64,000 nt of DNA from Watersipora subatra. Its lineage: Eukaryota; Bryozoa; Gymnolaemata; Cheilostomatida; Watersiporidae. The notes below the pieces were generated by a model. The model had not been told where the DNA came from and ran no database searches. It saw nothing but the letters and a program-made list of their open reading frames with translations. Both the position numbers and the translations under genes were made by a program. Shown piece after piece: positions 32,421 to 58,388 of this stretch. The first letter of the stretch is position 1, and every line of letters starts with the position of its first letter. Where the stretch lies: positions 29,615,213 through 29,679,212 of the forward strand of contig NC_088717.1 in assembly GCF_963576615.1 (NCBI RefSeq), in the 5' to 3' direction.

Positions 32421-32510
32421 ATAAATAAAGAATAAAATGAATAGAAGTAGCATGAAGGGAACAGAGGAATGCAGCAAATAAACTGCTTAACCAAAACATC
32501 TGTTTTTTCT

Positions 32511-32955
32511 GATGGTAAGTAGACCCGATGGTAAGTAAACTCGATCGTAAGTAGACCCGATGGTAAGTAGACCCGATGGTAAGTAGACCCGATGGTAAGA
32601 AGACCCGATGGTAAGTAGACTCGATGGTAAGTAGACCCGATGGTGAGTAGACCCGATGGTAAGTGGACCCGATGGTAAGTAAACTCGATTGGTAAGTAGA
32701 CCCGATGGTAAGTAGACCCGATGGTAAGTAGACCCGATGGTAAGTAGACCCGATGGTAAGTAGACCCGATGGTAAGTAGACCCGATGGTAAGTAGACCCG
32801 ATGGTAAGTAAACTCGATGGTAAGTAGACTCAATGGTAAGTAGACCCGATGGTAAGTAAACTCGATCATCAGTAGACCCGATGGTAAGTAAACCCGATGG
32901 TCAGTAGACCCGATGGTAAGTAGACCCGATGGTAAGTAGACCCGATGGTAAGTAG
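32511..32955 (+). repeat. 16-bp minisatellite of splice-donor-like units
   Basis: About 27 copies of gatggtaagtagaccc. Nearly every unit contains ggtaagta, identical to the consensus 5' splice site. One copy has a 1-bp insertion and a few carry aaactcg in place of agacccg. The array is 0.6-1.0 kb upstream of the TRAPPC2 start and antisense to it. Confidence 0.96.
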
Positions 32956-33270
32956 ACCTTGAAGTTAAAAGTAAATGCGAACTAACATAGGAGGTTGTGA
33001 TTGCAAGCGGCGTGTACTAATTAATGCTTTATGGCTCAGTGAAGTGCATATTTCAAGTGTGACAACTATTTCAACCAATTTTAACAATGCCAGCCGATTA
33101 TATTTTAGTTGACATCAATACTACATTACTCTGCTTAATTATTTATGCAATGAATGCTGAGCAAAGCTGATGTCACCCATACATTTCACATATTTAGATT
33201 TCACCATATTATCTTATTCAACTGTTTTATTGACTGCTGAAGCTGTTAATTAACCATGTCTTCGCGTATA

Positions 33271-33939: not shown

Positions 33940-34885
33940 CATATTTTGCATTTCCTAGCTTTACATATATATGTGGTCACCGTTCGTGTATGAGTTCAAG
34001 TTGATGTTTCTTCCAATTTTTTTAGAGACTTTCACACCTCAATGAGCCCTAGCACAAATTTTAAATTTCTCTATTCTTAATTTAAAACTATTTCACTAAT
34101 AGTTTTAAAACTTGCATACTGGTTAGACTCCCGGCTTTTTTAGATTCCAAACCACAATCCTCAAATTATTCTTAAAAGTTGACTTGCAACAAAATTCACA
34201 TTACAGTTAATTGAAAAGATGAAAAGATTCACCATGTCTTACTCTGTTGTGTTGTAGGTGCAAAATATGTTGAAAGGTGATTACAAGCTCTTAAATGCTC
34301 AAAAACCAACAGAAAATCGCAGCCACACGAAACCGCCATTGTTTGGATTTTCTTTCCAAAACGGCTCAAATGTGACGTAGTTGTAAGAGATGGTTTCTGT
34401 TTACACTTTCATGCAACCTTATTCGTCGAAACATTTTCACAAATATACTTCAAGCATTCAATAAAACCATGTCTATTTCTTACGCGTCTATTTTATCGTC
34501 ATCGTAATGCTGTTACTTTTAGCAATGATATCGTATAACATACCGTAAAAATTTGTTTAATTTTTTAGCCTTAGCTTGAAGGAGTACATATCATTGTCTG
34601 ATAATCATGACAAGCTTGTTGGTCACTGCTGATAATCGAAAAGTACAGCAAAAATTATTTGTGAAGCATTGGGTCACATGATCAGATTGCGACTTGACAA
34701 TTAGATAATGCCGAAACAAAACTGTAAAGTAGCGAACATCTATATGTCTTCTACAGGGTCTTCGGTAAAACCCGAAGTGTTTGTCATAAACTAGTGCTAC
34801 GATAGGTTTTATATTAAGCTGTTTATTGGCCTTTCAATTCACGTGAGAACATAACAACATAATTCATGTGACAAGACAATAACTC
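33940..34885. other. Intergenic spacer
   Basis: No gene or terminal repeat was recognised. Confidence 0.4.
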
Positions 34886-35115
34886 GCGATGAACACACAA
34901 CGCGAGGCACTGTAAGGCGCCATAGCCTTACAGTGCCTCGCGTTGCGTGTTCACAACTCGAGTTGCACAACTCGTGTTGTGAACACGCAACGCGAGTTTG
35001 TAAAAAGTGCAATATATTGGTATTACAGTAACATAACCGTAGATCTGGTTATATCAACAATGATACATCAATAGGCACCCGTTAGCTAATAGAAATTAAA
35101 TTATGTATGTAAGTA

Positions 35116-35805
35116 CAGTGTAACCTCGGTTTTCGAACGACTCGCAGTTCGAACAAATCGGAGTCCGAACAAAAAATTTAAGAAGCAATTCTTGCTTCGT
35201 AGTTGGAACAAAAATCAGAGTTCGAACGCCGGATGCTGAGCGGCGTTGACCGTGACCAACTGTTGTCGCCAAGAAAGGATGCCCCGACGTCCGAGATTAA
35301 ACAAATGTGTAGCAAATGGGCCGAGTTACAGAATTTCGGCGAACTCCACCACCCCGATAAAGCTGCAGCCACAAGAGTCATCAATGACTTAAATGGCACT
35401 ATCATGAACCACTTCCGAAATGTGCTATAAAGAAGGCAGAAGCAAGTGTCATTGAATAGATATTTTAAGAGAAAAGAACATCCTGTATCCTAAAAAATCC
35501 TATTCATAATTCTTTTCTTTATCCTTTTTTATTTTTACACGTTCATGCTAGCGTAATCTTTCGTATGGAAGATTACAATAGTAATTACATTACGTTTTAC
35601 GGGTTACATTTATGTTATTTGTGTCTTTGCCATTTTGCTGTACAAATAAATGTATGTGTACTAACAAGGTAAACATTCAGGGTGTTGGAACGGATTAAAA
35701 CGATTTACATTATTTGTAATGGGAAAAATGATTTCGGTGTTCGAACAACTCGGTGTTTGAACAACCTTCAGGAATGGATTATGGTCGAGAACCGAGGTTG
35801 CACTG
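35116..35805 (+). mobile_element. Non-autonomous Tigger element nested in FB1
   Basis: The ends CAGTGTAACCTCGGTTTTCG and CAGTGCAACCTCGGTTCTCG (right end complemented) are flanked by TA on both sides. The uninterrupted FB1 copies at 46 and 58 kb show the empty site, with a single TA in gtactgtaaaactaga. It retains only the transposase C-terminus. Confidence 0.92.
35203..35493 (+). pseudogene. Tigger transposase C-terminal remnant
   Basis: Encodes KQMCSKWAELQNFGELHHPD and INDLNGTIMNHFRNVL, then after an in-frame TAA (35428-35430) RRQKQVSLNRYFKRKEHP. The W..LQ.F...HHPDK....I...N...M.HFR..L.RRQ.Q.SLDRF tail is typical of animal Tigger proteins. The HTH and DDE parts are missing. Confidence 0.8.
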
Positions 35806-36636
35806 TACTGTAAAACTAGAGCTAATGGTGAATTATCTTGTCCCGCGTTTACAACTCGAGTTATATTTACAAACTCGAGTTTGTAAATATAACTCGAGTT
35901 GTACAACTCCAGTTTATCAAAAATTCAGGCCGAGTTCTTTCAACAGCAACTCGAGTTCAACAACTTGGCTTGAGAACATGGAACGTGAAGCTCTGTGGGG
36001 GCATTGTACTAGACAACTCATCATTTCATTTTCTCAGGCTATATTTCTTATATGGAAGTTTTTTTGTGCATCATTAAACGCCGATGACATAATTTCTATG
36101 TTTGTTCATTTTCGGTGTTCATTCAGTTTCTTGTCAGGTTCTAGAAAGATAACTCTTTGTTCATTTGAAAAAGAAGTGGCCTGGCCCCCCCCCATAGATT
36201 GTTTTTTAGTTTGCTTTTTACATTCTACAATTGTTTTGTCTCTTTATATTTATATAAATAAACATGCGCAAATATCGCCAATATATATAATTTAAATATG
36301 TATATATATATATATTTAAATTATTGTTATTAATCAATTATTAAATTTTATATAATATGCGCAAATACAGTCCTGTAAATGAGACACCACCATTACTCAC
36401 TTTGCTTTTTTTAGAAACCCGGGTTAGTTTTGCGTAACACGACTGGAGTTCATCAAAAGCCAGGCCGAGTTCTTTGAACAGCAACTCGAGTTGCAAACAC
36501 ACAACGCGCGACACTGTAAGGCGCCATAGTAAGGCGCCATATAACTCATTTATGAATGAAAGGAACAGCAGTGGCTTAAAATCAAATCTCTGAAAAATGC
36601 TTGGCTATAAAGATCTCAAAGATGATTCGTACCCAT

Positions 36637-36871
36637 TGTAATATCCTAGACATTGGAATTGTCTTCCCTATTGCTGGGTTTTGTAAACAAATTAATTGTC
36701 ATAGATATGACAGGATTTAAGCCTCGTTTTGAATTGAAAGTCAGCACATTAGGCTGTCTTATTATGTAAGCTTTCTTTTGAATTGCCGCTGCTGAGCTGT
36801 ACAGTCGTGTATTTATAATCTGATTATTGTGTGAATACATCTGACACTTATATAATTACAACGATGTTATA
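36637..36871 (+). repeat. Gypsy-1 5' LTR (235 bp)
   Basis: Begins TGTAATATCC and ends ACGATGTTATA; matches 41537-41771 with four transitions. The TG...TA ends are slightly atypical compared with TG...CA. Confidence 0.95.
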
Positions 36872-36872
36872 A

Positions 36873-36890
36873 TGGCGACGAGGATGGGAT
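36873..36890 (+). other. Gypsy-1 primer-binding site
   Basis: TGGCGACGAGGATGGGA starts one base after the 5' LTR; TGG fits pairing to a tRNA CCA end. The tRNA was not identified. Confidence 0.6.
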
Positions 36891-36997
36891 CCAGACTGTT
36901 TGTAGCAACCATCTCACTCTAAAAGCCAAGTAGATTGGTCTTTATTTTTAAGGTATTTTCTTTTCTTCCTTCATTGCTGATTAAATTTGAGTTCAGA

Positions 36998-37645
36998 ATG
37001 GATAGCAAGGGGCCAGGCAATTTCTCTCCAGACGGCGATGCTTCAATAGTTTCCACGAATTGGAGATCATGGGTTGAAGAATTTGAGGCCTTTTCTGACT
37101 CGAAGGGAATTTTTAATTTGGATGGGGAAGGGAACGTCAACATGAGGGCTCAGAGAAAGGCGCTCTTGTTGTACCACGCTGGGGCCAGGGTTAGGGAAAT
37201 TTATGGCATGTTGGCAGCTACTGATAGAGACAATTACAACGGGTTTGAGACAAATGAGACTTTTCAGCGTCATGTGTTTCGTAAGATGGTGCAATTGGAA
37301 AATGAGACAGTGAGCCAATACTGTGCGCGATTAAGGAAGGCAGGTGGTAATGGATGCAATTACCACAATGTGAATGATCAAATTAGGGATCAAATCGTGG
37401 AATATTGTATATCCGATGTGCTAAGGAAGCACTTGATGGAAGAAGGAAACGCTTTAACTTTCGAACGCACACTGGTTTTGGCTAGTACACACGAGTCAGT
37501 AGAAAGTCGATTCCGGGAGATGAGTAGCAGACCGCTGTTGAACAGGGTTAGTGATAATAGGCCAGGCACCAATCGGAGTAGTAATGGCTTTCGTGGCAGC
37601 AGGACAGGCCTAGATAGGGGTAGTAGGGTTGCTAACGAATTTTGA
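36998..37645 (+). pseudogene. Gypsy-1 gag (capsid region), ended by premature TGA
   Basis: Starts MDSKGPGNFSPDGDASIVST. It shows the capsid pattern W..W...FE.F.....I, then R..LLLYHAG and ETFQRHVFRKMVQLENETV. The part around NGFETNETF appears shortened compared with related Gag proteins. An in-frame TGA at 37643-37645 stops the frame, which then continues unchanged into the zinc knuckle and protease, so the stop is a nonsense mutation or, less likely, a readthrough site. Confidence 0.8.
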
Positions 37646-38344
37646 GGTAAAGCCCGAGGCAATGGGGGTAATAGGGAAAATTCACATGCTGTGTGCCCGG
37701 CCAAGGGCAGACAATGTTTCAAGTGCAAAGAATGCAATCATTTTAAATCTGTGTGTAAGGGTAAGCATGTAAATTATGTAGAACAGAACGATGAGGATTC
37801 TAGCGATAGGCCTGACGCTGGTAATGTTAGCCAGAACCCTGATAGATTTGCTTTCACATTAAATTCTATCAACAAAGTAGGACTTCACCGAGCAGTGGTG
37901 CAAGTGGGAGGTGTAGATGTGAAATTTATTTTGGATTCAGGAGCAGATTGCAATGTCATAGATAAACCTACGTGGGAAACGCTTAAAAAAGGTGGTATTG
38001 TAGTTAAAAAGTCAGAGCGCTCTGGTCCGAAAATTTATTCATATACATCACAGAAACCGCTGTCAGTGATAGGGCAGTTTTGGGCAGAGGTACATTGTTC
38101 TGGTAATGGTGAGATGGCCAAAAATACCAAGTTTTTGGTGATTGACAGCGTGGCTGAGGCTCTATTGGGGATAAAAACATGTACGGAGTTGGGGCTGATC
38201 AGCATTTTTACAAATCTTGTCATTGAGGAGGGGGCGGCCTGGAAAAGTAAGTTTCCAAAATTGTTCTCAGAAGGTATAGGAAAAGTCGATGGTGAGATAA
38301 CACTTTTTATTGATCATACAGTTGTGCCTGTGGCTCAACCATAG
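37646..38344 (+). pseudogene. Gypsy-1 nucleocapsid zinc knuckle and protease
   Basis: In the same frame as gag. The knuckle CFKCKECNHFKSVC is a canonical CX2CX4HX4C. The aspartic protease follows with FILDSGADCNVID (DSG active site) and ALLGIKTC for the second flap/ALG-like motif. It ends at TAG 38342-38344, inside a local imperfect duplication of ctcaaccatagtgggtgcca, exactly where related elements run on into the reverse transcriptase. Confidence 0.8.
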
Positions 38345-39523
38345 TGGGTGCCATTACCGTGCCTCAACCGTAGGGTGCCATTTTCTGTTCACGAAAAATT
38401 AGAAAAGCATTTGGATGAGTTATGCTTTTTAAACATCAATGAACCAGTAGAGGGGCCGACAACATGGAGTAGCGGGGTGGTTATTGTGCCAAAGGCTGAT
38501 GGCAGCATTAGGTTGTGTGTAGATATGAGGCAGGCCAACAGAGCCATAATCAGACATCACTACCCTGTGCCCACGGTGGATGAGCTAGTGCTAGACATGA
38601 ACGGGTCTAAGGTTTTCTCGAAAATTGACATGAAAATGGGGTTTCATCAATTCGTTTTAAACAAAAAGCCTAGGGATATTACAACATTTACCACCCATGC
38701 TGGTCAATACCGTAACAAACGGCTTAGCTTTGGTATTTGCGCTGCCCCTGAAATATACCAAAGGAAAGTTGCCGACATAATTGCAGGGATTCCAGGAGTC
38801 GTGAACTTAGCTGACGATATAGTAGTAAATGCAGGTAACATGGCAGAGCATAATGAACGCTTAGAATTGACACTTGAGCGACTAGAAAAGGCAGGGCTAA
38901 CTGTGAATGAAGGCAAGTGTGTTTTTGGGGCCGAGCAGATCACTTTTGTAGGACATAGAATCTCTAGCCGGGGGGTTGATCCAGGCTCAGACAAGGTTGA
39001 GGCCATATCAGGAGCATCAGTACCAAAAACTGTAGGGGAATTGAAAAGTTTTCTAGGGTTAGTGAGCTATTGTTCAAGGTTTATTCCTGATTTCGCATCT
39101 AGAACGGAGTTGTTGCAAAGCATGACCATCGGCAAGCAGTCTGAAATGCAACTGGAGTTTGGGGGGCAGGAATTGAAGGCTTTTCAGGATTTGAAATGTG
39201 CGTTAGCTCATACAAGGACACTGGCGTTTTTTGACTTGGAGTCCGATACTTTGCTATACACAGATGCAAGTCCCGTGGGCTTAGAGTGTGTGCTCGTTCA
39301 AGTACAGGGAGGGGTTGATAGGGTCATCTGCTATGCTTCGAGAGCGTTGACTCAAGTTGAGAAACGATATTGTCAGACAGAAAAAGAAGCTTTGGCCATA
39401 GTCTGGGCATGCGAAAGGCTCCACCATTATTTGTTTGGGATTAAATTCACTCTCATGACAGATCACCAGCCATTGGAGGTGATCTATGCAATCACGAAAA
39501 GAAATCTCCCTCTGCTCAAATAG
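38345..39523 (+). pseudogene. Gypsy-1 reverse transcriptase and RNase H
   Basis: Same frame as the protease. RT motifs in order: SGVVIVPKADGSIRLCVDMR, YPVPTVDEL, FSKIDMKMGFHQ (first Asp), then NLADDIVV, where the usual Y(V/I)DD is LADD, and FVGHRIS. RNase H follows with LLYTDASPVGLECVL, CYASRALTQVEKRYCQTEKE and MTDHQPLE. The frame stops at 39521-39523 just after the RNase H core. Confidence 0.88.
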
Positions 39524-39650
39524 AGAGGTGGAATATTTAAAGGCCCTTAATAGAGAGGTGGAATATTCAATGACCCTTTAATATAGAATATATTAAAGGG
39601 TCTTTGTTCAATAACCCTTTAATATAGAATATATTAAAGGGTCATTGAAC
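39524..39650 (+). repeat. Duplicated palindromes replacing the RNase H-integrase linker of Gypsy-1
   Basis: Two near-identical palindromes (39572-39602 and about 39613-39642; arms gaccctttaatata / tatattaaagggtc around gaa) follow a repeated agaggtggaatatt. They occupy the place where related polyproteins encode the linker ending in NIADCLSR, which reappears at about 39648. Confidence 0.8.
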
Positions 39651-40166
39651 ATTGCAGACTGCTTATCTAGAATGGTGACGGGTCAATATAGATCTCCAGT
39701 GGAGTCTGTAGAAGACACTGAGCTTTTTGTTAGGCAGGTAGTTGTGGACGATTTATTAGGTTTTGAGGCAATAACGGCTAAACAGGTTGAGAGAATATCT
39801 GACAGAGATGGGGAATTGGGTTATGTAAGGCGTTCAATAGCTGAAGGTTCATTTGACAATGCACCAAAAGACATAGCAAAACAATTTAGACCCGTTATTG
39901 ATGAGCTGTGTATTATTGGCCAAACAGTGTTGAGGGGAAACAGGATAGTTGTACCGGTGAAGTTGAGACATAAAATAATTGAGCCGGGACACGAAGGACA
40001 TCTTGGTATTGTGGGTACTAAGCGTAACTTGAGAACGAGGGTCTGGTGGCCGGGTATGGATGCAGAAATAGAATGCTATGTGAAGCGGTGCAAGGGTTGT
40101 CAATTAGTAGGTCAGGCACAGGAAAGAGACCCAGTTAGAGTCACTGAGTTGCCAAATGGGCCCTAG
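39645..40166 (+). pseudogene. Gypsy-1 integrase, N-terminal part
   Basis: Begins with the NIADCLSRM end of the linker and contains the HHCC zinc-binding domain (HEGHLGIVGTKRNLRTRVWW then CKGCQLVG). It ends at TAG 40164-40166, where family members have a Trp before the first catalytic Asp; the frame continues unchanged after it, so this is a point nonsense change. Confidence 0.85.
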
Positions 40167-41204
40167 GAAGACTTAGCATGCGACTTATTGGGTCCACTAG
40201 AGAATGGTAGATATATATTTGTCGTGGTAGATTACTATAGCAGGTTTTATGAGTGTGTATTCATGCAGTCCATTGTTAGCTGCAAAATCATAGAAGCTTT
40301 GGTTGAGATTTTTGACAAGCATGGACTGCCTTTGAGCTTAAAATCAGATAATGGACCTCAGTTTATTTCTCGGGAGTTTGCTGGATACATTGAAAGTATG
40401 GGCATTAGGCATGATTTAGTGACACCGCGATGGCCCGAGTCTAATGGGGAGGTAGAGCGTCAGAATCGTTCTTTGATGAAGAGAGTTAGGACTGCCATAG
40501 CTGAGGGTAGGAGCGTAGCAGGGGAGTTAAGGAAATACCTGTTGGCTTACAGAAACACGCCAAATTCGATCACTGGTAAATCTCCGTCAGAAATGCTTTT
40601 TGGGCGAAAATTACGGGTAAAGGTCCCTCAGGTGCAAGATATCTTTGGGGAGTTGGAGGAACGGGATCGTGATGCGGAAGTAAAAAATCAGATGGTTGTC
40701 AAACGTAATCAGAACAAGTCGGGGCACGACTTGGAGGTGGGCGATTTAGTGTTGTTGAAAAGGGATACTCAGTCAAAATGCCAGACACCATTCCATTATG
40801 ATCCATATAAAGTGCGAGAAGTATGCAGTCCCATGTTGACGTTAGAGTCGGTAGATCGCAAAATAGTGAAACATAATGTAACGCATGTTAGACGTTTTCA
40901 CTCCCCGGAAACTAATTTACCTGTTGTAGATGAAGCTGGAAATAGTGGAGGAACCACCCTACCACCAGCCCGAAACTGTGATTATGACCGCCGACCAACA
41001 AGACCACAGACCGACATTGCTTGTTGGGATTCAGTACGAGAGGAGCCGGACACACCAGTTCGACCGGATACGCCCGCAAGAAAACTACCCGCTAGTCTAA
41101 TCACCCCGATGAGTGGACGAGACAGTGCGCTTGACAGTGAATCCTCAGCAAGGCCGATAAGAGACAGAAGACCACCGGCATATCTAAACAAATACATAAC
41201 ATGA
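40167..41204 (+). pseudogene. Gypsy-1 integrase catalytic core and C-terminus
   Basis: In frame with the preceding segment. The catalytic triad is present: LACDLLGP (D), LKSDNGPQF (D) and ESNGEVERQNRSLM (E). LAYRNTPNSITGKSPSEMLF follows, then a basic C-terminal region ending ...NKYIT at 41204. Translation would need restart or readthrough because of the upstream stop. Confidence 0.88.
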
Positions 41205-41536
41205 ACTAAGCCGTCAACGCATACATTAGCTATAAAGGGATCAAACCCTAGCCTGAGTCACTCGAGATAACGGCACAGACATCCCGAGTGCTTGTAAGGG
41301 AAAGCACACCCGCCCTATTATGGGGGCATGCCTGGAACAGAGATTTCCCAGCTGCGGCTGGGTTTATTATGCTGCCAGGGTTCAATTTACGGCGTCCGCA
41401 ACAGACGTTTAGACTAATATAAATGGCTAAAATGCAATAATGTCATAATTATATATATATATATATATATATGTATTTGTGGGTTTGATAATATTTCTTA
41501 TTACTGACTAGCTAAATCTTATACGTAAACATGAGG

Positions 41537-41771
41537 TGTAATATCCTAGACATTGGAATTGTCTTCCCTATTGCTGGGTTTTGTAAACAAGTTAATTGTC
41601 ATAGGTATGACAGGATTCAAGCCTCGTTCTGAATTGAAAGTCAGCACATTAGGCTGTCTTATTATGTAAGCTTTCTTTTGAATTGCCGCTGCTGAGCTGT
41701 ACAGTCGTGTATTTATAATCTGATTATTGTGTGAATACATCTGACACTTATATAATTACAACGATGTTATA
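41537..41771 (+). repeat. Gypsy-1 3' LTR (235 bp)
   Basis: Same ends as the 5' LTR, followed directly by the CCCAT target duplication. Confidence 0.95.
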
Positions 41772-45047: not shown

Positions 45048-45405
45048 CGTATAGCAGTACGTATAAATCAAATTTCACCAAACCTTTAGAACAGTCGTTG
45101 ACAAAAATATTTTGCCGATGGAGGTAGTAACGACGCTTATGAATTACGAAAAGTTGAGGTTTACCTCTATGGCTTGGAATAAAGTGATTTTCTAAAGCGA
45201 TAGCAACCGTTTCGGTAGCCGTTGGGCAAAAAACAGTTCAAATTAACAGTGTTGAGTTCGAGTTATATAGAGCCATTTATCATTGCGTGGGAACGGACCA
45301 AGCAAATCCAGTCGAGTTAACCATGTGTTCGCTATATCCGAGGGCGAGTTATCCATGTTTCACTGTATATAGAAAATATAGCTAGAGAAAATGAAATGAT
45401 GAGAT

Positions 45406-45501
45406 TATGGCGCCTTACAGTGCCTCGCGTTGCGCGTTCACAACTCGAGTTGCACAACTCGAGTTGTGAACGCGCAACGCGAGGCACTGTAAGGCGCCAT
45501 A
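45406..45501. repeat. Perfect 96-bp palindrome made of FB1 termini
   Basis: Two identical 47-bp arms (tatggcgccttacagtgcct onward to caactcgagttg) are separated by the two bases ca. This is the FB1 terminal sequence in head-to-head form without any element interior. No flanking duplication was seen. Confidence 0.9.
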
Positions 45502-45562
45502 GCCATACCCAAGCCGAGTTCCTTCCAACAACAACTCGGCTTGAGAACATGGAACGCGAAGC

Positions 45563-46434
45563 TATGGCGCCTTACAGTGCCTTGCGTTGCGTGTTTGCAA
45601 CTCGAGTTGTTCAACTCGAGTTGCCGAGTTGTACAACTCGGCCTGGGTTTTTGATGAACTCGAGTTGTGCTACGCAAAACTAACACGGGTTTGTAAAAAA
45701 AGTAAAGTGAGTAATTGGGGTGTCTCGTTTACAGAACATTTACAGAAATTTAATAATAATAATTTAAATATATATACACATTTAAATTATATATATTGGC
45801 GATATTTACGCACATTTATTTCTATAAATATAACGAGACCAAAACAACTGTAGAATGTAAGAAGCAAACTAAAAGCCAATCTATGTGGGAGCTGGGCCAC
45901 TTCTTTTTCAAATGAAAAAGAGTTATCTCTCTAGAACCTGACAAGAAACTGTACACCGAAAATGAGCATAGAAATTATTTTAACGGCGTTTAATGATGCA
46001 CCAAAATAAATTCCATATATAGAAAATGTAGCTAGAGAAAATGAAAAGATGAGATGTTCTCAAGCCGAATTGTTGAACTCAAGTTGCTGTTAAAAAAACT
46101 CGGCCTGGATTTTTGATGAACTCGAGTTGTGTAACTCGAGTTATATTTACAAACTCGAGTTGGTAATTATAACTCGAGTTGTACAACTCGAGTTGCAAAC
46201 TCGGCACAGTATAATTTGCCATTAGCTCTAGTTTTACAGTACATACATACATAATTTAATTTCTATTAGCTAACAAGTGGCTATTGATGTACCATTGTTA
46301 ATATAACCAGATCTATGGTTATGCTATCGTAATACCAATATATTGCACCTTACTTTTACAAAGTCGCGTTGCGTGTTCACAACTCGAGTTGTGCAACTCG
46401 AGTTGTACAACTCGAGGCACTGTAAGGCGTCATA
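45563..46434 (+). mobile_element. Full-length fold-back element FB1 with 6-bp target duplication
   Basis: Termini TATGGCGCC and, at the right, ggcgtcata. CGAAGC occurs immediately outside both ends (45557-45562 and 46435-46440). The flanking sequence on both sides joins into a second, reverse-oriented FB1 relative (gagaacatggaacg...cgaagc | acttttttggtacatca), which confirms a nested insertion. The interior has repeated caactcgagttg palindromes and an AT-rich centre, with no protein. Confidence 0.88.
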
Positions 46435-46440
46435 CGAAGC

Positions 46441-46660
46441 ACTTTTTTGGTACATCATTGACATAATTTCTGTTTGATCATTTCCGGTGTTAATTCAGTT
46501 CTTGTCAGGTTCTAGAAAGGGAACTCTTTTTGTCATTTGAAAAAGAAGTAGCCCGACTACGAAATTGGTTTTCCAAAAAGGTTTACATAGGGCAGTAAAA
46601 TATTGGCTCCTGATTGGTTTAGTAATTGAGTTTTAGTAACCAAAACTTACATCATTACAT
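46441..46660 (-). repeat. Partial reverse FB1 relative (host of the nested copy)
   Basis: Contains the FB1 blocks cttgtcaggttctagaaagg and catttgaaaaagaagt in reverse orientation, truncated by the piggyBac insertion at the TTAA at 46660. Confidence 0.65.
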
Positions 46661-46779
46661 TAACCCTTTAGCGACCGGGCGCTTACGGCTGGAAATTCCC
46701 CAGCGTACCAGAGCATTTACTACGGCGATCTGAGCCTTCGACTCGACTGCGTAAAAACTGAATATACGTTCAGTAAACT

Positions 46780-47650
46780 TGAGGTAGATACATAAATTAA
46801 CATGCATAGGAATGCTGAGAAATTTCTCTACAAACTAATATATTTTTTATGTAAATAGCTTGCAATTGCTATCCTGCAGAAGTCTCAACTTGTTGAAGCT
46901 CCCAATATTTTATTTTCGTACGTCATTTTCAATTGTGTTTTCTAAATAATAGAAGTAATTGAAAATGTTGTATAAACAGTACTTATATGGATTCATATGT
47001 CCACAACAATTTGCAAAAGAAATTGGTCGCCCAAGAGCAATGAAAGTGGAGTTATGATCTCCGATGCAATGCGGGAGCGCCGCTCAAAATTCTCAGCGCG
47101 TGGCCCTAATGACAAGCGAAAAATGGAGGCTTGACATGGCCGCCTAAAATTGGTTATAACTTTCATGCTAACTGGCATACAGTCACAAATAAATATGCAC
47201 TAGAAAGCTTAGAAATTTCTCAAGAGGCTGCCGTTTATTTCCTGCAAATCGACTGTAAAAATTTTGGTCAGTGTTCTGATTCGACGAAGCTGTCAGCTTT
47301 TTACCATAAAATATCGATAATAAATATTTTTTTACAAGTAATACTTCTAAGAAAATAGTTTATGATAAGCATCTGCACGGCGGCAAATATGTTTGCTACA
47401 CGCAGCAAAAAAAATTGGTTGTCCAAGTGCATCAAAAGCAGAGTTAGGCGCTCATATGCATTGCGCGTGCAGCTCTTAGAAATGCTCATGACGCCATGTC
47501 TGTAAGCAGAGCACGAGAGGGCTGACAAGACCTGACAGGCTGTGCCATCACTGCTATAACTTTCGTGCAAATTGGCATTTAGCTGCAACTAAATATGCAT
47601 TTGAAAGCTGAGATTATTTTCTAGACTGATTTCTTCCTCCAGACAGCTTG
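46780..47650. repeat. Diverged tandem triplication inside piggyBac
   Basis: Segments around 47000-47240 and 47390-47640 share aattggt(c/t)g(c/t)ccaag, tcagcgcgtgg-like and ataactttc(a/g)tgc(t/a)aa blocks in the same order. A third, weaker relative ends near 46900. The period is about 390 bp. Confidence 0.65.
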
Positions 47651-48135
47651 CAAAGCTTTACAACTTGAGATATATATATATTGATAGTTATCATGTTTTT
47701 CTGATTTTAGTTATGATCTTATGCATTTCTCAAAACTATATTTATTTATTTTGCATATAAACACATGGCACAAATTCATGTGTGCTGCAGCAAAATTTAT
47801 TGTGCATAAAATGAATTGAGTCGTGAGCCTGCATTGGCACATTTGGTGAAGCAGCACAAGACAGAAGGCAAAATTTATTACGAGCACAAACTGCAAATCA
47901 TGGACTGCTAGAAAGCATGTGAACTGCACTCTTTGATTATATGGGTGCCCTAAAAAGGGTGGTCTGTAACAAATAAAACCTGTAAATGCACAACAAATAC
48001 AACCTGTAAATGTACAACAAATACAATACATAACAATACAATAAATACAATGACATTTTAGCAAGTGTATGTACAAAAGCAAGTGATACAAAGCAATGAA
48101 GCATTTGCACACGCTAAATAAATTTTAAGATGAAT

Positions 48136-49802
48136 TTATTTAGCATGGTAAGCATCAAAACACGACTCACACAAAGGTATTCCACATGCTAGACATTTAA
48201 ATTTAGTTTCGCTTTGCTTAGGTTTGTTGTCATCACCGCGCCTTTTGCAGTGCCTACAAATTCTGTATTTTGCCGGTCTACCTTTCCCTGGACTATTTGT
48301 CACTATTCGATGAGTAGAAGAAGTTGAAGCGCGGGGATTACTGTTTTTGCGACAAGAACCGGTATATTCAAATATCTGATGAATTAATTTCTGTCGAAAC
48401 TGCAAGTCAGTTATTTTACAGCTGCTATGAATTCTATAAACTATGGCCGCATTGTATACACAAATATCTAATAAATGAAAAAATAGTTTTTTATACCATT
48501 TCATGGTTTTACGTGCAGCGTTATGATAATGCAGATTTTGATCCGATTTGTCAATTCCCCCCATGTATTTGTTGTAATCCAAAATAACAGCTGGTTTGCA
48601 AACTTTATCCCCTTTATAATTTACTTTGCCTGTATCTGCGACATCCATGTTTTTATGCATAGTTGAAATTACAGAAATATATTTTTATCTCTCCAACAGC
48701 TAACCATACTTTCCCCATTAGCAAAGCTTGTTGTCTGACCTTTTTTAATTAATTTTCCATTATACATTTTCAAATCTTTGGGGACACCTTTTCTGTTTGG
48801 ACGCAAAGTTCCACAAACATGAGTATTATTTTTTACAAGTTCAGCTGCTAACTCTGGCGAATTATAAAAATTATCCATAAATAAACAATGACCTAAATTT
48901 AGTAAACCACCCATTAATTTCATGACTATGTTGTGAGTGAGCAAGCCTCTACCAGTTCCTTCGGCTTGCTCCTGCTCATCACCAATGTACACAGACAGCT
49001 TGTGCACATAGCCAGAGACAGCATCGCAGAGAGCAAACAGCTTTATTCCAAATCTAGATCTTTTAGATGGAATATACTGTCTGAAGCTGAGTCGCCCTTT
49101 CCAAGCCAGCAAGCTTTCATCTATAGATATAAATTTACCAGGCAGCAAAACAGAAGATAACCGGTCACATATCATGGCAAAAACACTTCCTAATTTGAAC
49201 AATTTATTGCCAGCAGGGTTTTCCGAATTGTCAGTGAAATGCAAACTGCTTAAAACCATTAAAAACCTGTTTCTTGAAATCATTTTACTAAACACTGGCA
49301 TAGATAACAAATGATCGGTAGACCAGTAAGATTTTAGAGTAGGCTTTTTGACAATACCCATAAGCAAAATTAAACCAAAAATTCGCCAAATATCTTTTTC
49401 ATCGACAAGCTGCCAGGCATCGCCATGTTTTTGAAGGCCATAGCTATTTGTTTCATTAACTATAATATTCATGATGGCCGATGTAATGAACAGCTTTAAA
49501 TAGCCAAAAATACTTATCTGACCAGGAATTCGGCTTCTTACACCTGCCAAGCTGTCATCAAAATGAAATTCTTTGGGTTTTAAATCGGCTCCTCTCTGAA
49601 ATCCGTCATGACTCCCTCCTTCAACGCCGGCTGTTTCACTCTCACTTTCGTACTCCGATTCACTCGGTCGAATTTCTTTTTCACTTTCATCGTCTTCTTC
49701 ACATTCTTCTGCACTGAAATCCTCTGCTTCACTTTCAAACCAGTCGATATCTTCCTGTAAACGAATCTTTTTAGCAGCGCTTGAAATGTCACGTCCGTTC
49801 AT
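48136..49802 (-). pseudogene. piggyBac transposase with one frameshift
   Basis: The first part (likely Met at 49802, MNGRDISSAAKKIRLQEDID) has an acidic N-terminus, then the DDE_Tnp_1_7 core: KFISIDESLLAWKGRLSFR (first Asp), GIKLFALCDAVSGYV and HCLFMDNFYNSPELA (second Asp). It stops at 48669. The frame shifts by one near 48670-48690, and the second part (to 48136) gives VILDYNKYMGGIDKSDQNL, with the third Asp, and a C-terminal cysteine-rich domain (CRHCKRR...CLACGIPLCESC). From family knowledge, this enzyme cuts and rejoins at TTAA without lasting scars. All three catalytic aspartates survive, so inactivation is recent. Confidence 0.92.
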
Positions 49803-50079
49803 GATGATAAGCTTTCCAAAAAGAATGATCAACTTCTAGCCACGTGTACTTTTTGCACATGCGTATAAAGGACTAATTATTGCCTCAAAATAGTAGTGTG
49901 ATATCTTTTAAAACTCCTAAAAATATTAATTAAAAATTTTAGTGCCATTTTTAAAATAAATAAATGAATTTAAAAAATACGTATCAAAGACTCTGACGTA
50001 CGCTGAGACTGCGCTCTCAGCCCGTCAGATTACCGGAATGGTATCCAAAAGGTTAAGAATCAATATATATATATATATA

Positions 50080-50279
50080 TGTTGTGCCGAACTATTACCG
50101 ACGCCAATATAGACTATGTTTTGCACATGCGTAAAAAGTCCATGCTTGATAAAATGGCAACTTGACAAGTAGAATATTTATTTTGGGATTTAGCCTGGCC
50201 AGGTTTATCATTAAGATTTTCATAGTCACACATATACTGCATACACATTTTACATAACTCAAACAGGTAAGACGCAACA
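50080..50279 (+). repeat. Gypsy-2 5' LTR (200 bp)
   Basis: TG...CA ends; 97% identical to 54582-54781. It starts 24 bp after the right TTAA of piggyBac. Confidence 0.95.
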
Positions 50280-50297
50280 TGGTGTCTGAAGTGAACT
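50280..50297 (+). other. Gypsy-2 primer-binding site
   Basis: TGGTGTCTGAAGTGAAC begins directly after the LTR; the leading TGG fits a tRNA CCA end. The tRNA was not identified. Confidence 0.65.
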
Positions 50298-50422
50298 GGT
50301 AATAGCCCACTGAATATACTACCAACATCCTGATGCAAACGAGTACGATGCTAATTTAAGCTAATGAAAATAAATAAATAAAAAATCTAGTCACAGAAGA
50401 TCTAAAAGACTTATACTAAGCT

Positions 50423-53400
50423 ATGGCTCGCAGGTTTGACCTTCCTAATGCACTGTTGTTAGATGAACATCGTGAAGAAGCGTTTCGAGTGTTCAAGAAA
50501 CAATGGGAGAGATATGCTATAGTAAGTAAATTAAGCAAGGAAGATGAGGACTACCGTTCTGCATTGTTACTATACACAGTTGGTGAACCTGCAGTAAAGC
50601 TAGTAGAATCTAGTGGAGAAGAACACACCACTGTTACACAAATACTAGATATTCTAGAGTCACATTGTGTTGGAACAAAGAATGAACTGTACCATGACTT
50701 TGTGTTTGGCACTGCTGACCAGAAGCAGGGAGAGGATTTCGACACTTTCTTAGCAAGACTGTGCAGTCTGGAAAAAGTGTGCAACTTTGAAGAGTTGAAG
50801 GATAGAATGCTGCGCAACAGACTTGTTTTAGGCATTCAAAACAATGACACAAGAAGAAAACTGCTGGCTTCTACTGAGCAAACATTTGAGTCTGTAATTA
50901 AGCTATGTAAGAGTGAGGAACGTGCTACTACTACTCTTCGAAAAATACAAGCAGAAGAAGCAGTTAATGTGAATGAAATCTCAATGAGAAGTCATCGTTC
51001 CTTTAAGGACACAAAATCGGCAACTAGGTCGGTGGATTGCAAATACTGTGGCAGAAGGCATGCTGCCAGGAAGGAATCTTGCAAAGCTTTTGGCAAGATT
51101 TGCAAGGCAGAAAATCATTTTGAAGCTGTCTGTCTTAAAAAGAAAACTGGTGCGCATGCATCGAAACATGCGATAGCAGGGGAGACTAGTCATCATGAAT
51201 CAATAGACCAGATCACAACAAAAAGCAGCTCTCAAAAGGTTTTCGCACGCTTGGTTTTGATAAACTCAGGTGCAGAGGCCAAGTTTCAGGTAGACAGTGG
51301 CTCGACTGTCAATATCTTGAGGCGGGATATGTTACCACAGGGGGTACCAATCACAGCAGACAAAACAATACTAACTTCATGGACCAACGATGTGCAGACA
51401 GTCTTGGGTACCGCTAGGATAATGGTTCGTAATCCCAAAAACAACAAAAAGTACAAAGTGACGTTTCATATTGTAGACAAAGAACGATCACTCATTTTAG
51501 GCTTAAGAGCTTCTGTGGCAATGGGCATGATAACCATTAACCAAGGAAATATCAATGCTATGAATACGAACAGTCAGATTGACATCTTGAAAGAATTTTC
51601 AGGTGCTTTCGACGACAAGTTAGGTTCTCTACCTGGTGTTCAGCACTTGAAAGTGGCAGAAGAAGTCAGACCACATACCTCACCAGTGCGCCGCGTGCCA
51701 CATGCTATACACACAGAGGTTAAAGCTGAGCTAGATGCTATGGTGAAGAAAAGGGTAATTGAGGCTGTGGATACACCCACTCCTTGGGAAAGCAACATGG
51801 TAGTGGCAAAGAAGCCTAATGGCAAGCTGAGGATATGCATAGACCCACAGAGATTAAATGAAGCGTTGCAGAGAGAATCTTACCTTATGCTCACATTGGA
51901 GGATGTACTTCCACAGTTCAAAAATGCTCGACTGTTCTCTGTAGTAGACTTGAAGGCTGGATACTGGCATGTGAATCTTGACGAAGAATCATCTTTACTG
52001 ACATGCATGAACACACCATTTGGTCGTTATAAATGGCTATGTCTGCCGTTTGGTCTGAAAGTCTCTTCTGAGATATTTCAGAAACAACTTCATCGTGCAC
52101 TGCAAGGTGTAGATGGTGTAGTCTGCGTAGCCGATGACATTGTAGTGATAGGCTGCGGCTCAGACGATGTAGAAGCGCGCATAAATCATGATGCAAGAAT
52201 GAGATTGCTTCTTGAGCGCTGTGGGGATCTAGGAATTAAGCTAAACCCAGACAAAGTACAGTTATGTCAGAAATTGATCAAGTTTCTAGGCCACATAGTA
52301 ACAGACAAAAGGTTACTGCCTGATCCCATGAAAATCAAGAGTGTGGCGGAAATGAAAGAACTTCGAAATGAAAAGGAACTGAAGAGTTTCCTTGGTTTTC
52401 TTCAATATCTATCCAAGTTCTTCACCAACCTAGCAGAGATTTCAGTTCGTCTGCGAGAGGCAAACAGTAAGGGAATTTTGAACTGGACCAAAGCTCAAAA
52501 TGAGGCCTTTTTGGAAGCCAAAGCACTAGTAGCAGCTGAGCCAGTGATGCTAAAATACTATGATCCAAAGAAAGAGTTAACTGTGCAGTGTGATGCTAGT
52601 GACAAGGCTATAGGAGCAACCTTACTACAGGATGATCAACCTTTTGAGTTTAGCAGTCGAGCTCTTCGAGATGCAGAGACCCGGTACGCTATCATCGAGA
52701 AAGAACTTCTTGCCATTGTGTGGGCAATTGAAAGGTATCATCAATACACATATGGCAGGCACTCAACTGTACTTTCAGACCACAGATGTCTACAAAGAAT
52801 CATGCTCAAACTTCTCAGAGATGTCCCTAAAAGACTGCAAGGTCTACGTATGCGGCTTCAGCAGTATGATATTACTGTAACATACCACCCAAGAGCGCAG
52901 CAACATATTGCAGACATGCTTAGTAGACACGGATGTCACCTGAATGATCCAGCAGACAGTGCAAGGGAGAATGAAACAATAAACTGTCTCACAGAAATTG
53001 TTCAAGCCTTAACTGAAACAATAGCTGGTCCATGGAAAAAAGATCTAAAAATGGAAACTGCAAACTGTCCGACTCTACAAGCTGTTATGAAAGTTATAGC
53101 GAAGGGGTGGCCAGAAGAGAAAGAGAGAATAAACATGCTAGCAAAACCATTTCATAGCATGAGAGATGAAATGGCTGTGCATGATGGACTTGCCTACAGA
53201 GGGGAGAGAATTGTGATTCCCAGCTCACTGAGAGCTGAAGTAAAACAAGAACTACACTCATCCCATCAAGGGGTCAAGGCCACGCTGAGAAAAGCTAGAG
53301 AGTGCCTCTACTGGCCTGGAATGACGGCTGAAATTGAAAACTTTATAGCCCAATGTGACATTTGTCAAAGATATAGTGCAAGACAACGGAACGAACCAAT

Positions 53401-53740
53401 GATGAAGACAGACCTACCAGATCATCTAAGGCAGATTGTGTCTAGTGATCTCTTCACATGTGGTGAAAAAGAGTATATGGTCACTGTCGACCACTATAGC
53501 AACTTTATTGAAGTAGATAGAGTTGAGTCAAAAGACGCTAGAACTATAGTAAAGAAATTGAAAGGGCACATGGCTCGATATGGTCTTACCGAAACTCTTA
53601 TAACTGACAATGGCCCTCAATTTACATCAGAATTATTTGAAAAGTTCACTCAAAAGTATGACATTAGACATCAAACCTCAAGTCCACATCATCAACAGGG
53701 GGATGGCAGGAATCAGCAGTCAAGACAGCAAAAAGACTAA
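50423..53740 (+). pseudogene. Gypsy-2 gag-pol polyprotein (1,105 aa), truncated by a frameshift in integrase
   Basis: Domains in order: Gag (from MARRFDLPNALLLDEHREEA, with RSALLLYTVGEPA); cysteine region at residues about 206-237, whose second knuckle CKAEN-HFEAVC lacks one of the expected cysteines; aspartic protease with FQVDSGSTVNIL near residue 291; reverse transcriptase (ESNMVVAKKPNGKLRICID, FSVVDLKAGYWH, CVADDIVV near 571); RNase H (LTVQCDASDKAIGATLL); integrase HHCC (HSSHQGVKATLRKARECLYW) and catalytic Asp residues in VSSDLF and ITDNGPQF. A frameshift near 53700 ends it before the catalytic Glu. Family function is copy-and-paste transposition through an RNA intermediate. Confidence 0.93.
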
Positions 53741-54240
53741 TAACTAAAGCTAACGAAGATGGGACTGATGCCTATTTAGCGCTACTAGCCCATAGAAACA
53801 CACCTCAAGAAGGGCTTGAATACAGTCCAGCTCAGCGAATGTTTAGTTGTCGTTGCAGGACAAGGTTGCCAACTACTGCATCATTACTAAGCCCATCAAA
53901 TCCAAATACTGATAGTGTAAAATCTGCACTTAAACAAAAACAATCTGTAGACAAGGCTGTATATGACCAGCACACAAAGGAACTAAAACCTCTGCAGGAT
54001 GGGGATGTAGTTCGACCTAGACCAGTGACCTTGGGTCAGAAAGTTTGGCGACGTGCTCAAGTCACACAACGTCTGGATGAACGATCTTATATGGTGCAAC
54101 CAGAGAGAGGAGCTCCTGTGCGTAGGAACAGAGTGGATATTAGACAAGTCCCTCATCCAACAAAGTCTGAACCAGGAGTACTCAGCACTCCTGAAACAAC
54201 AACATCAGAACCAGTGATAGACAACATCTACCAACACTAA
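53703..54240 (+). pseudogene. Gypsy-2 integrase C-terminal part, other frame
   Basis: After the frameshift, the next frame reads WQESAVKTAKRLITKANEDG, containing the catalytic Glu. It continues with LALLAHRNTPQEGLEYSPAQ and the basic C-terminal domain (GQKVWRRAQVTQRLDERSYM), ending at 54240. Together with 50423-53740 it accounts for the whole polyprotein. Confidence 0.88.
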
Positions 54241-54581
54241 AGAGAGGGAGGTATCAGAGGCAACGCCTATCAGAATCACACGCTACGGAAGAACAATTAA
54301 TCCTCGTCGCTACCTAGAGTAGCGGGCTGTCTTTTGGGACATTGGTCACTGAAATACTGCTGTACCAAAATACTAGCGGGCTGTCTTTTGGTACAGCGCT
54401 GTACATACTATACCACTCTACTACTTACCATATATATTATTATATCAATACTCACATCTTACTCAACTTGCTAATTGCTAGCGTCGATCATATGGACAAT
54501 CAACGGGGAACACAACAATCAACATATAAACAGTTCTCTACATAACAGATAGACTCAGCACATTATTAAAAGAAGGGAGGA

Positions 54582-54781
54582 TGTTGTGCCGAACTATTAC
54601 CGACGCCAATATAGACTATGTTTTGCACATGCGTAAAAAGTCCATGCTCGATAAAATGGCAACTTGACAAGTAGAGTATTTATTTAGGGATTTAGCCTGG
54701 CCAGGTTTATCATTAAGATTTTCATAGCCACACATATATTGCATACACATTCTACATAACTCAAACAGGTAAGACGCAACA
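54582..54781 (+). repeat. Gypsy-2 3' LTR (200 bp)
   Basis: Preceded by the polypurine tract and followed by (at)n. Confidence 0.95.
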
Positions 54782-54954
54782 ATATATATATATATATATA
54801 TAATTAGAAAGGAACACAAAATTCTAAAAAACCTAGTAGAAATTGTGTTATCATTCAAAAAGTGCTGTTAAAAGGTAAGCGGGCATTCACATGAAACTAA
54901 TTAATTTACGCCTTTTTGAATAAAATTCAGGAATTTTGTGTTCCTTTCTAATTG

Positions 54955-55140
54955 TAACTAATGATGTACGTTTTGATTACTAAAACTCAATTACTAAAAC
55001 CAATCGAGCCAAAATTTTACTGCCGTATGTAAACATATTTGAGAAAAAGAATTTCGCAGACCGGCTCGAACATAGATGGTTTTTTAGTTTGCTTTTCACA
55101 TTCTACAATAGTTTTTGTCTCTTTATATTTATATATAATA
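54955..55140 (-). repeat. FB1-related fragment
   Basis: Contains tttttagtttgctttt, cattctacaat and gtctctttatatttata, as in FB1 reverse copies, plus an actaaaactcaattactaaa block shared in complement with 46600-46650. Truncated, with no ends visible. Confidence 0.55.
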
Positions 55141-55329
55141 CTTTTTATTGTGCTGATCAGTATTAATGTGCTAATCAGTATCATTAGTGCGAAATTTTTG
55201 ATATTGAAAGTAAATAACACACTAGCTACTCTTACTAATACCTCAAAGATTTAATACCTCAAATATTTTAGAACACTTATGAACATGCCATGAGGCACAA
55301 ATGGCGAGCGCTTCATTTGTTATTTGTAT

Positions 55330-56514
55330 GCTAGTGAGTGATCGACTGGTAGTTACAAGCTTCTTTTGAACCCTTCTTGTCAATGGGAGTGATGATAGCA
55401 GTTTTCTAGGTTGTGGGCGATTTCTCTGGTTTTAATGAGACTTGATATATATGTTTGAAACAACGAGCTATCAAGGATGCACTAATAGTTCACATTTCCT
55501 AATATTATCAGGTCTTGAGAACTTGTTGTTTTTCAAGTCGTAGATCATTTTGGTCACACCATTTTTATTAATATCTATGGGTTCTGCAATTATTTTGTTA
55601 GCTACGGGTTAATCGGATGCGCCTGCTGGTGCTGACATGAAATGGATAGATATTTCGTATTATTCAAACAGTTATCTCAAAATTAACATTATGCTGGCAA
55701 TGATATAGAATATTTATGTACGTAATAAAACAATTATAACATTACTACTATTAAATAAAACATTTATAACATACACATACTACTGGTAAAAAAACAGCAA
55801 CTGTATTTGTACCAGTTTGTAACCTAAAAACTACTTATGTTATATAGAGTTTATATAACAAATCAAAAACTAGCCATGAACATTTTAAAAATACAACTGA
55901 TGGTAGTTGTGTTAGATCATTTATTGGTTCATCAGTGCAGAATTGTTTATTAAAATATGTGTTGAGAATGTAAGGTATATGTAGAATGGTTTGCTATTAC
56001 CTTTGGACAGAGGTTTGCCTAATTTATCATTAATGAATGTCTTTTTTAACATGTGGAATGTTTTTTGTTGTTTCGTTTTTCTTGCTTATATTTGTTTATT
56101 AAAAATAAACCGCTGTCTTTTTTGTATTTTGTTAGGGTTTTATGCTGATTATCAATAGATTTCTTAGCTCTTTGATTGAACCATGGAGGTTGGTTTGGTG
56201 CTGGTAAGGTAATAGACTTTACTGGTACAGATGCATCAATTGCTTTTCTGAAAGAACATGCAAATTTGATCCTCATCTCTTTAACATCGTTCATATTAGA
56301 CAGCTGTTGCTCTGTATTTGCCATATGTTTATAAAATTATTTTATGTCTGCTTCTCTGTAGACTTGGTACCACTATTTCAGCTGTAATCACAGAGTGGTC
56401 TCTCAAATCTGGCGTTATAGATTTAGTAGCCTTGACCAGTGATGGATGATTAACACAGATCGGATCCAAGGTATTGCCATGAATTTGTGTTGGCTCAAAA
56501 ATAATTTGCGTCAA
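55330..56514 (-). pseudogene. LINE (CR1/Jockey-type) endonuclease to RT relic
   Basis: On the minus strand: TQIIFEPTQIHGNTLDPICV and ITPDLRDHSVITAEIV (end of the AP endonuclease, with the D-H pair), then LPAPNQPPWFNQRAKKSIDN and LFLINKYKQEKRNNKK (endonuclease-RT linker). In other frames SKGNSKPFYIYL, NGVTKMIYDLKNNKFSRPDN and a degraded tail into the RT fingers follow. At least four frame changes or stops occur, and the palm with YADD is absent. It is a dead antisense fragment. Confidence 0.75.
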
Positions 56515-56519
56515 GTTGT

Positions 56520-57465
56520 TTTCTGGTGAAATATTGAGAAACTAGGGTGATTGTGTTTATATGTGGCCTGATTCAAAACTTGAAGATTTTTTCAATTGAT
56601 GCCAGGAACGTTTAGCCAGGACCGGCTTTAGGCTTTAGTGGGGGAGAATGAGGCAGGGTCAACAAGACAAATCAGCAGTGAGAAGTGTTACATTTTGCAC
56701 TGCCGCATATCAGGTCTAACATCTATTACATCAGCAATGTACAAGGTCATTACATTGCATTTTGTAATGAGCACAAATTTCGACATCAAGGAAACCCTTT
56801 GGGGGCTCGGTTTGGTTGACATAGCAAATTCTAGGGATCAGCTAATTTTTATTAGCGAACATTTCTTCCATGCCTATATGCTAGCAAAAATTGTTGTTTT
56901 CTAGTGTTCATAAATATTCAAATTTATGAAACAGTTAAAATCCTCAATAACTCAACATTTACATGAAAGGGGTATTGCTTTGATAATGTAGTTTTATTTG
57001 TCTATAATAAGAGTTGAAAAAGAATTGATACCTATTGTTGCAAACAAACAGGAGGTTAGATGACTCACTGTTGGCACTGTTGATATCAAACGGAAGGGAT
57101 GCTTTCCTTTTTGTCCATTATCCTATACATAGAAGCAAAAGCACCTCGAGGAACGTATCCTAGCAGTACTAATTTCTTACTCACTTTTGAATTGAAAAAC
57201 AAAAGATAAAGCAAAAAAAGAAATTACTATTCATCTCACATACACACTCGAACCAATTTTATGTGTGGGGCAATTCCAATAGAATGGAAGTTCCAATTTC
57301 TTAAGAACTAAACTTCGCAAACATAAAAACCAAAAGAATTTAAATAAATGCACTATATGGTGATAATTCTATGGGATATTTTTGCCAATCTCAGTGGCGA
57401 ATATTAATGCCACGAATATTAAGTGCCACTAGAGTATGTTGTTTATTTTTGCCACTACAACTCGC
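56520..57465. other. Intergenic spacer
   Basis: No gene was supported. An 88-codon open stretch at 56638-56904 (+) has no recognisable domain. Confidence 0.4.
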
Positions 57466-57540
57466 AGGTTGGCTCAGTGGCTAGGTTTTTAATCAGAGAC
57501 CACAAGTTCATCAGTTTGAATGGCAGCTGGTGTCCCTGTT
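57463..57540 (+). repeat. tRNA-derived SINE head
   Basis: An A-box-like ttggctcagtggc and a B-box-like cagtttgaatgg are spaced as in tRNA-derived SINEs. The FB1 element is inserted immediately downstream. A functional tRNA is unlikely because the stems do not pair. Confidence 0.45.
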
Positions 57541-58388
57541 GTATGGCGCCTTACAGTGCCTCGCGTTGCGCGTTCACAACTCGAGTTGCCGTGTTGCACA
57601 ACTCGGCCTGGGTTTTTGATGAACTCGAGTTGTGTTACGCAAAACTAACACGGGTTCGACAAGAAAGCAAAGTGAGTAATTGGGGTGTCTCATTTACAGA
57701 ACATTTACAGAAATTTAATAATAATAATTTAAATATATATACACATTAAAATTATATATATTGGCGATATTTGCGCATATTTGTTTCTATAAATATAACG
57801 AGACAAAGACAATTGTAGAATGTAAGAAGCAAACTAAAAAACAATCTATGTGGGAGCTAGGCCACTTCTTTTTCAAATGAAAAAGAGTTATCTCTCTAGA
57901 ACCTGACAAGAAACTGAATGAACACAGAAAATATACAAACATAGAAATTATGTCAACGACGTTTAATGATGCACCAAAGAAATTCCATATAAAATATACC
58001 GTAACTAGAGAAAATGAAATGATGAGTTGTTCTCAAGCCGAGTTGTTGAACTCGAGTTGTTGTTGAAAGAATTCGGCTTGAGTTTTGATGAACTCGAGTT
58101 GTGCAACTCGAGTTATATTTACACAACTCGAGTTGTGTAACTCGGCACACTATAATTCGCCACGTAGTTCTAGTTTTACAGTACATACATACATAGTTTA
58201 ATTTCTATTAGCTAACGGGTGCCTATTGATGTACCATTGTTAATATAACCAGATCTACGGTTATGCTACCGTAATACCAATATATTGCACCTTACTTTTG
58301 AAAAGTCGCGTTGCGTGTTCACAACTCGAGTTGTGCAACTCGAGTTGTGAACGCGCAAGGCAAGGCACTGTAAGGCGCCATACTGTTG
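57536..58388 (+). mobile_element. Full-length fold-back element FB1 with CTGTTG target duplication
   Basis: The element 57542-58382 (841 bp) begins TATGGCGCCTTACAGTGCCT and ends with its complement. CTGTTG lies directly outside both ends (57536-57541 and 58383-58388). It is collinear with 45563-46434, sharing the acgcaaaactaacacgggtt block, AT-rich middle and cagatctacggtt-like right part. Repeated caactcgagttg palindromes lie in both terminal regions. It encodes no protein. Confidence 0.9.

Follow-up and report, generated by a model that had tools for sequence, protein, structure and literature searches.

What kind of mobile element has left several copies of itself, one of them inside another, in a 64,000-nucleotide stretch of the genome of the bryozoan Watersipora subatra (contig NC_088717.1, positions 29,615,213 to 29,679,212; this whole stretch is referred to below as the window), and which kind of enzyme would move it? 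The repeat is probably a family of non-autonomous DNA transposons (miniature inverted-repeat transposable elements, MITEs) of the IS3EU/GingerRoot type. Two full-length copies lie in the window:

45563..46434, forward strand: copy A, full length, 872 bp, with the duplication CGAAGC at 45557-45562 and 46435-46440
57542..58382, forward strand: copy B, full length, 841 bp, with the duplication CTGTTG at 57536-57541 and 58383-58388

An earlier inspection of the letters alone (the sequence-only reading) had claimed that the two full-length copies possess matching termini and that each is bounded by perfect 6-bp repeats, and both claims held when coordinates, ends and flanks were read again. The termini of the two copies are TATGGCGCCTTACAGTGCC at one end and GGCACTGTAAGGCG(C/T)CATA at the other, giving the common pattern TATGGCGCC..GGCG(C/T)CATA, and the copies are 93.3% identical over their aligned bases. 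Copy B has TATGG and CCATA ends and copy A has TATGG and GTCATA. The direct repeats CGAAGC and CTGTTG lie directly outside copies A and B, respectively, and extend no further, with no repeats of 7-12 bp found to abut either copy. When two window positions 800-900 bp apart were drawn at random, 138 of 200,000 trials gave a 6-bp match.

The source genome (784 Mb, 239 contigs) was searched using the 841-bp copy B as the query. This gave 869 first-look candidates, the best 40 of which were scored, and at least 42 rows extend over approximately 770 bases or more of the 841-base query, showing the family to be dispersed. In total 39 loci were fetched with flanks of approximately 400 bp requested. 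Termini were located by means of the terminal 17 bases with up to four mismatches and were then paired by hand, with the flanks already seen, the ends lying furthest out in each copy being used (L026c, which begins with other sequence, was set by hand). Five loci (L037, L039, L041, L042, L048) were left out before counting, having an unrecognised terminus or no pair, and 37 end-pairs were obtained from the other 34 (two from L022 and three from L026). Perfect direct repeats among these pairs were of 6 bp in 14 cases and of 7 bp in six, with none of 5 or 8 bp. With one mismatch allowed, a 6-bp repeat was counted in 20 of the 37 pairs and a 7-bp repeat in 11, and six pairs (L024, L026a, L026b, L026c, L028, L034) possessed neither duplication even then. 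A control in which flanks were swapped between loci (1000 swaps) gave means of 0.08 perfect 6-bp and 0.0 perfect 7-bp repeats. These counts and this control together indicate a duplication of 6 bp, or of 7 bp in roughly one in three of the perfect cases. Some loci have common flanks (L020/L035, L025/L032, L043/L044/L045) and look like duplicated insertions; after merging these, 13 perfect 6-bp and six perfect 7-bp events remain.

The flank comparison on at least 20 copies which the sequence-only reading had proposed was thus run on 37 pairs and revealed no 8-bp duplications. The 6-bp target duplication it had described was found at 14 of them, and the six perfect 7-bp cases mean that the length is to be given as 6 or 7. 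Its view of the repeat as a transposon family agrees with both the genome search and the duplications at the fetched loci. Mean pairwise identity is 92.6% among 32 copies (30 of the 37 fetched pairs together with A and B), and the family is therefore not ancient.

Terminal inverted repeats (TIRs) were identified by alignment of the ends, 120 bp being examined per end, and the figures rest on 33 of the 37 fetched pairs. The repeat starts no more than 5 bp from the end in 30 of the 33, and the median span in these 30 is 61 bp; the largest span is 100 bp. For the window copies, 46 of 48 bases match in B and the weaker repeats of A match at 24 of 27. Of the 37 fetched pairs, 28 retain TATGG as well as CCATA intact. 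With regard to coding capacity, the longest open reading frame (ORF) from ATG to stop measures 57 amino acids (aa) for A and 77 aa for B, and it reaches 156 aa for a third copy, C, taken without its insertion (see below), while the fetched pairs, for which lengths alone were considered, have a median of 71 aa and a maximum of 143 aa. Three ORFs of the window, with 187, 83 and 102 aa from stop to stop, overlap C, B and A, respectively, and had no Pfam match at 0.1. No recognisable protein is thus present in the window copies, as the first inspection had said.

IS3EU elements are described as having a target-site duplication (TSD) of usually 6 bp and TA..TA termini (PMC10045372), and the fungal members as having a 6-bp TSD, TAYGG..CCRTA ends and TIRs longer than 30 bp (PMC12730594). 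Compared with these published descriptions, as far as the excerpts of them extend, the MITE is alike in its 6-bp duplications, its TA..TA and TATGG..CCATA ends and its TIRs of approximately 61 bp, and it differs in that its copies lack a recognised transposase. Subterminal CAACTCGAGTTG palindromes and duplications of the terminal palindrome are features of the MITE that are absent from the same excerpts. The opinion that no named family has such ends is consequently given up, since the IS3EU ends and 6-bp TSD in these excerpts resemble those of the MITE. Exact-pattern scans of viral contigs for both ends and for the double palindrome gave no matches. A scan of genome contigs gave one 19-base match, in an Acidobacteria contig, which showed no further strong similarity and was taken as chance. 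When AACTCGAGTTG was looked for in the literature, the titles among the matches listed were unrelated to transposons.

Rve-type elements with TATGG ends live in the source genome. The integrase core PF24764 (rva_4) was matched 26 times there, with all 138 candidates scored, and in none of 14 control genomes. L075 contains a 322-aa ORF with matches to both rva_4 (1.6e-63) and rve (2.3e-9). A diverged multi-kb repeat surrounds the rva_4 genes. Ends of this family were located in L075, L076, L078, L079, L082 and L086, that is, in five of ten longer regions and in one of three added stretches (L086). Four of the six termini start with TATGGAG and the other two have one base different. The likeness of this family to the MITE consists of its presence in the same genome, the TATGG start of those four ends and its 126-bp TIR. 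An apparently 7-bp-flanked, TA-ended span in L076 (3674-8898) was dropped because the L078 family alignment (L076 1807-6552) passes its left end. An rva_4-matching fragment (L084; G000:C10:29680118-29680210) also occurs approximately 900 bp beyond the end of the window, and similar short rva_4 fragments with stops are found at several other sites.

A number of points weigh against placing the MITE with IS3EU. The ends of the rva_4 family match those of the MITE at 5-7 of the first 11 bases, which falls short of the Repbase rule that two non-autonomous elements are joined at no more than one mismatch in positions 1-11 and equal TSD length, and the rva_4 family is itself no classified entry. None of the 26 short rva_4 loci or 13 longer stretches contains the 9-base ends of the MITE or AACTCGAGTT, and BLAST matched none of them to the MITE. 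L078, L082 and L083 each contain one loose 19-base match to the MITE ends (up to five mismatches), a number that is about chance by estimate. A coding element with exact TATGGCGCC ends was not found in the rva_4 loci covered. The only span with two rva_4 family ends, from L086:3139 to L076:6552, possesses no duplication; its left end matches the same family side as its right end, and the span may join two copies. The mixture of 6 and 7 bp in the MITE is broader than the "usually 6 bp" of the IS3EU excerpts, and PF24764 would be a mark of IS3EU transposases on our own reasoning.

The same mixture and the missing coding partner with identical ends count in favour of a different assignment, namely to another superfamily that makes 6-7-bp duplications, whether already known or still undescribed (Dada, a short-TSD branch of hAT, MuDR, Polinton or an unnamed one). 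Lengths of this order are on record, the excerpted sources giving a TSD of 6 bp for Dada (PMC3706591), 6 bp for Polinton, 4-10 bp for MuDR with IS256, and hAT families with 5-, 6- and 7-bp TSDs. Dada is like the MITE in its 6-bp TSDs and unlike it in that, according to the excerpt, it lacks TIRs and inserts in small RNA genes (PMC3706591), whereas the MITE has TIRs of approximately 61 bp; no tRNA or Rfam matches were found in the window when it was scanned. The first five bases of the MITE also match both the fungal IS3EU ends and four of the six local rve-type ends, the two sets that the comparison took in. We therefore regard another superfamily as unlikely, though still the most serious of the alternatives.

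The sequence-only reading had called the repeat a "fold-back" element, and a Foldback-type element (such as FB or Galileo) moved via long inverted arms would account for some of its features. Compared with 20 shuffles, a single strand of B has a much stronger fold (z -12.3), and the family possesses numerous subterminal repeats as well as palindromic duplications of its ends. The MITE and Galileo have in common a number of internal repeats close to the ends, which in Galileo bind the THAP domain of its transposase, according to an excerpt of PMC3688188. However, long inverted arms are absent, the TIRs having their median of 61 bp and maximum of 100 bp within the 120 bp per end, with a start close to the end in 30 of 33 pairs, compared with TIRs of 1.2 kb in Galileo-G (same excerpt), and the ends of the MITE resemble IS3EU. 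The fold-back label was consequently not retained, and such an origin seems very improbable. A Tc1/mariner-like unit with TA duplications (TA-TGGCGCC..GGCGCCA-TA), whose flanking repeats would be chance, can be dismissed in spite of the TA at both ends, given that 20 of the 37 pairs have a perfect repeat of 6 or 7 bp beyond the TA, as against 0.08 (6 bp) and 0.0 (7 bp) with swapped flanks.

If the family is of the IS3EU type, an rve-type (integrase-core, DDE) transposase, acting in trans, would cut and paste a unit with TIRs of approximately 61 bp and TATGG..CCATA ends. The subterminal CAACTCGAGTTG palindrome repeats are likely, predicted binding sites of this transposase, which would join the ends to the target with a stagger of 6, sometimes 7, bp. 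We infer the class of enzyme by analogy, from the terminus, the duplication length and the TATGGAG-ended rve-type family in the same genome, and likewise the cut-and-paste mode and the role of the palindromes.

Insertion of one copy into another could be followed around copy A, where these further pieces of the family occur:

45406..45562, reverse strand: copy D part 1, an older reverse copy and the target of the insertion of A, starting with a 96-bp palindrome
45406..45501, no strand: the 96-bp palindrome at the start of D, two 47-bp element ends head to head with a 2-base centre
46435..46557, reverse strand: continuation of D beyond A, matching element ~421-319 and ending at another repeat
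45366..45405, forward strand: fragment E of a further copy, adjoining D in the opposite direction and matching 46016-46055 at 95%
55064..55133, reverse strand: fragment F (element 316-247), possibly more of D past an 8.5-kb nested insertion, judging by collinearity

The two 47-nt arms of the palindrome of D are 100% complementary. When the joined flanks of A were aligned, an older copy within L019 was found, among the matches listed, to read GGAACGCGAAGTACTTTTTTGGTGC across the A/D junction uninterrupted, with CGAAGT at the site where A has CGAAGC (one base different). This uninterrupted paralogous (empty) site supports the insertion of A into D and agrees with the initial description of A as inserted in an older reverse copy that resumes beyond it. 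The joined flanks of L031, likewise among the matches listed, align with window positions 15814-16011 across their junction, and this gives weak support, owing to 10 bases missing beside the junction. Inverted repeats of approximately 110 bp, 86% alike, occur at 46550-46657 and 54959-55066. As the older MITE copy carries on collinearly at their outer sides, these repeats may represent the termini of an 8.5-kb element that entered this copy.

The palindromic repeats have a distinct arrangement within the element. All 26 occurrences of AACTCGAGTT in the window fall within three element regions (eight in B and ten in A), compared with an expected 0.05 for the window (mean of 20 simulated sequences). 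They cluster in the left subterminal part, at element ~508-600 of B and in the right subterminal part, so that the palindromes do load both termini, as had been noted, and a third, internal cluster has to be added to that description. The corresponding parts of B are:

57578..57634, forward strand: left subterminal module (element 37-93), with a direct repeat at 58049-58103 (element 508-562)
58104..58162, forward strand: internal right-end relic (element 563-621), scoring 54, whereas 500 shuffles reached 29 at most
58283..58382, forward strand: right end, a 96-bp palindrome in decayed form

The rightmost 100 bp of B align with the entire 96-bp palindrome, and the inner arm has a score of 34, as compared with at most 25 in shuffles. 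At L019:401-1820 (1420 bp) an incomplete reverse copy is followed directly by a full forward copy, the inverted pair being bounded by a single 6-bp duplication, GCTCAA. This suggests that two copies can move together as one unit; one copy inserted in another, followed by deletion, could also have given rise to it. The internal right-end relic, the decayed-palindrome right end and this inverted pair point to a fusion origin of the 841-bp form, which would be a composite of three parts, namely an older element that had a right end already, a stretch of unrelated sequence and an end unit of palindromic structure. In a wider and more doubtful proposal, which we put forward tentatively, the palindromic ends would be interchangeable modules, with head-to-head 96-bp end duplications, adjacent copies moving as composites formed from any two outer ends, and the 841-bp element itself such a composite.

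The third window copy was outside the coordinates of the sequence-only reading:

~34890..36541, reverse strand: copy C, with both of its ends rearranged and an insertion dividing it

It has an inverted end duplication at the left and a 13-bp tandem duplication of the terminus at the right, is 91.2% and 92.3% identical to A and B, respectively, and carries a 690-bp pogo-like insertion with a TA duplication (35116-35805). TAACTC, read by eye, flanks it at 34880-34885 and 36542-36547 and may or may not be its duplication.

Other repeats of the window include a Gypsy-type long terminal repeat (LTR) retrotransposon at 36637-41771, with direct repeats of 235 bp (36637-36871 and 41537-41771, 98.3% identical) and ORFs for reverse transcriptase (RT), RNase H and integrase between them. 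A second Gypsy-type element at 50420-54240 has an open frame of 1106 aa with RT, RNase H, H2C2 and integrase domains. A piggyBac-like transposase ORF occupies 48136-49835 on the reverse strand (DDE_Tnp_1_7, 1.6e-68 on 48672-49835), and TTAACCCTTTAGCGACCGG at 46660 may be one end of a piggyBac-like element. Open frames of short repeated peptides at 30847-31218 and 32357-33016 resemble translated tandem repeats. Of ten chosen window ORFs scanned against Pfam, four matched Gypsy-like and piggyBac-like domains and six were without match.

For a eukaryotic transposase of the IS3EU kind, the set of 6- and 7-bp duplications would provide a gauge of how fixed the stagger is. L019 and copies C and D would serve as concrete cases of end duplication and possible composite mobilisation, and the tentative modular proposal, if true, would mean that elements grow by modules in a cut-and-paste system that is of rve type and flexible in its 6/7-bp stagger. 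With the probable assignment to the IS3EU/GingerRoot type, a numerous and unnamed repeat is now placed beside a poorly sampled superfamily.

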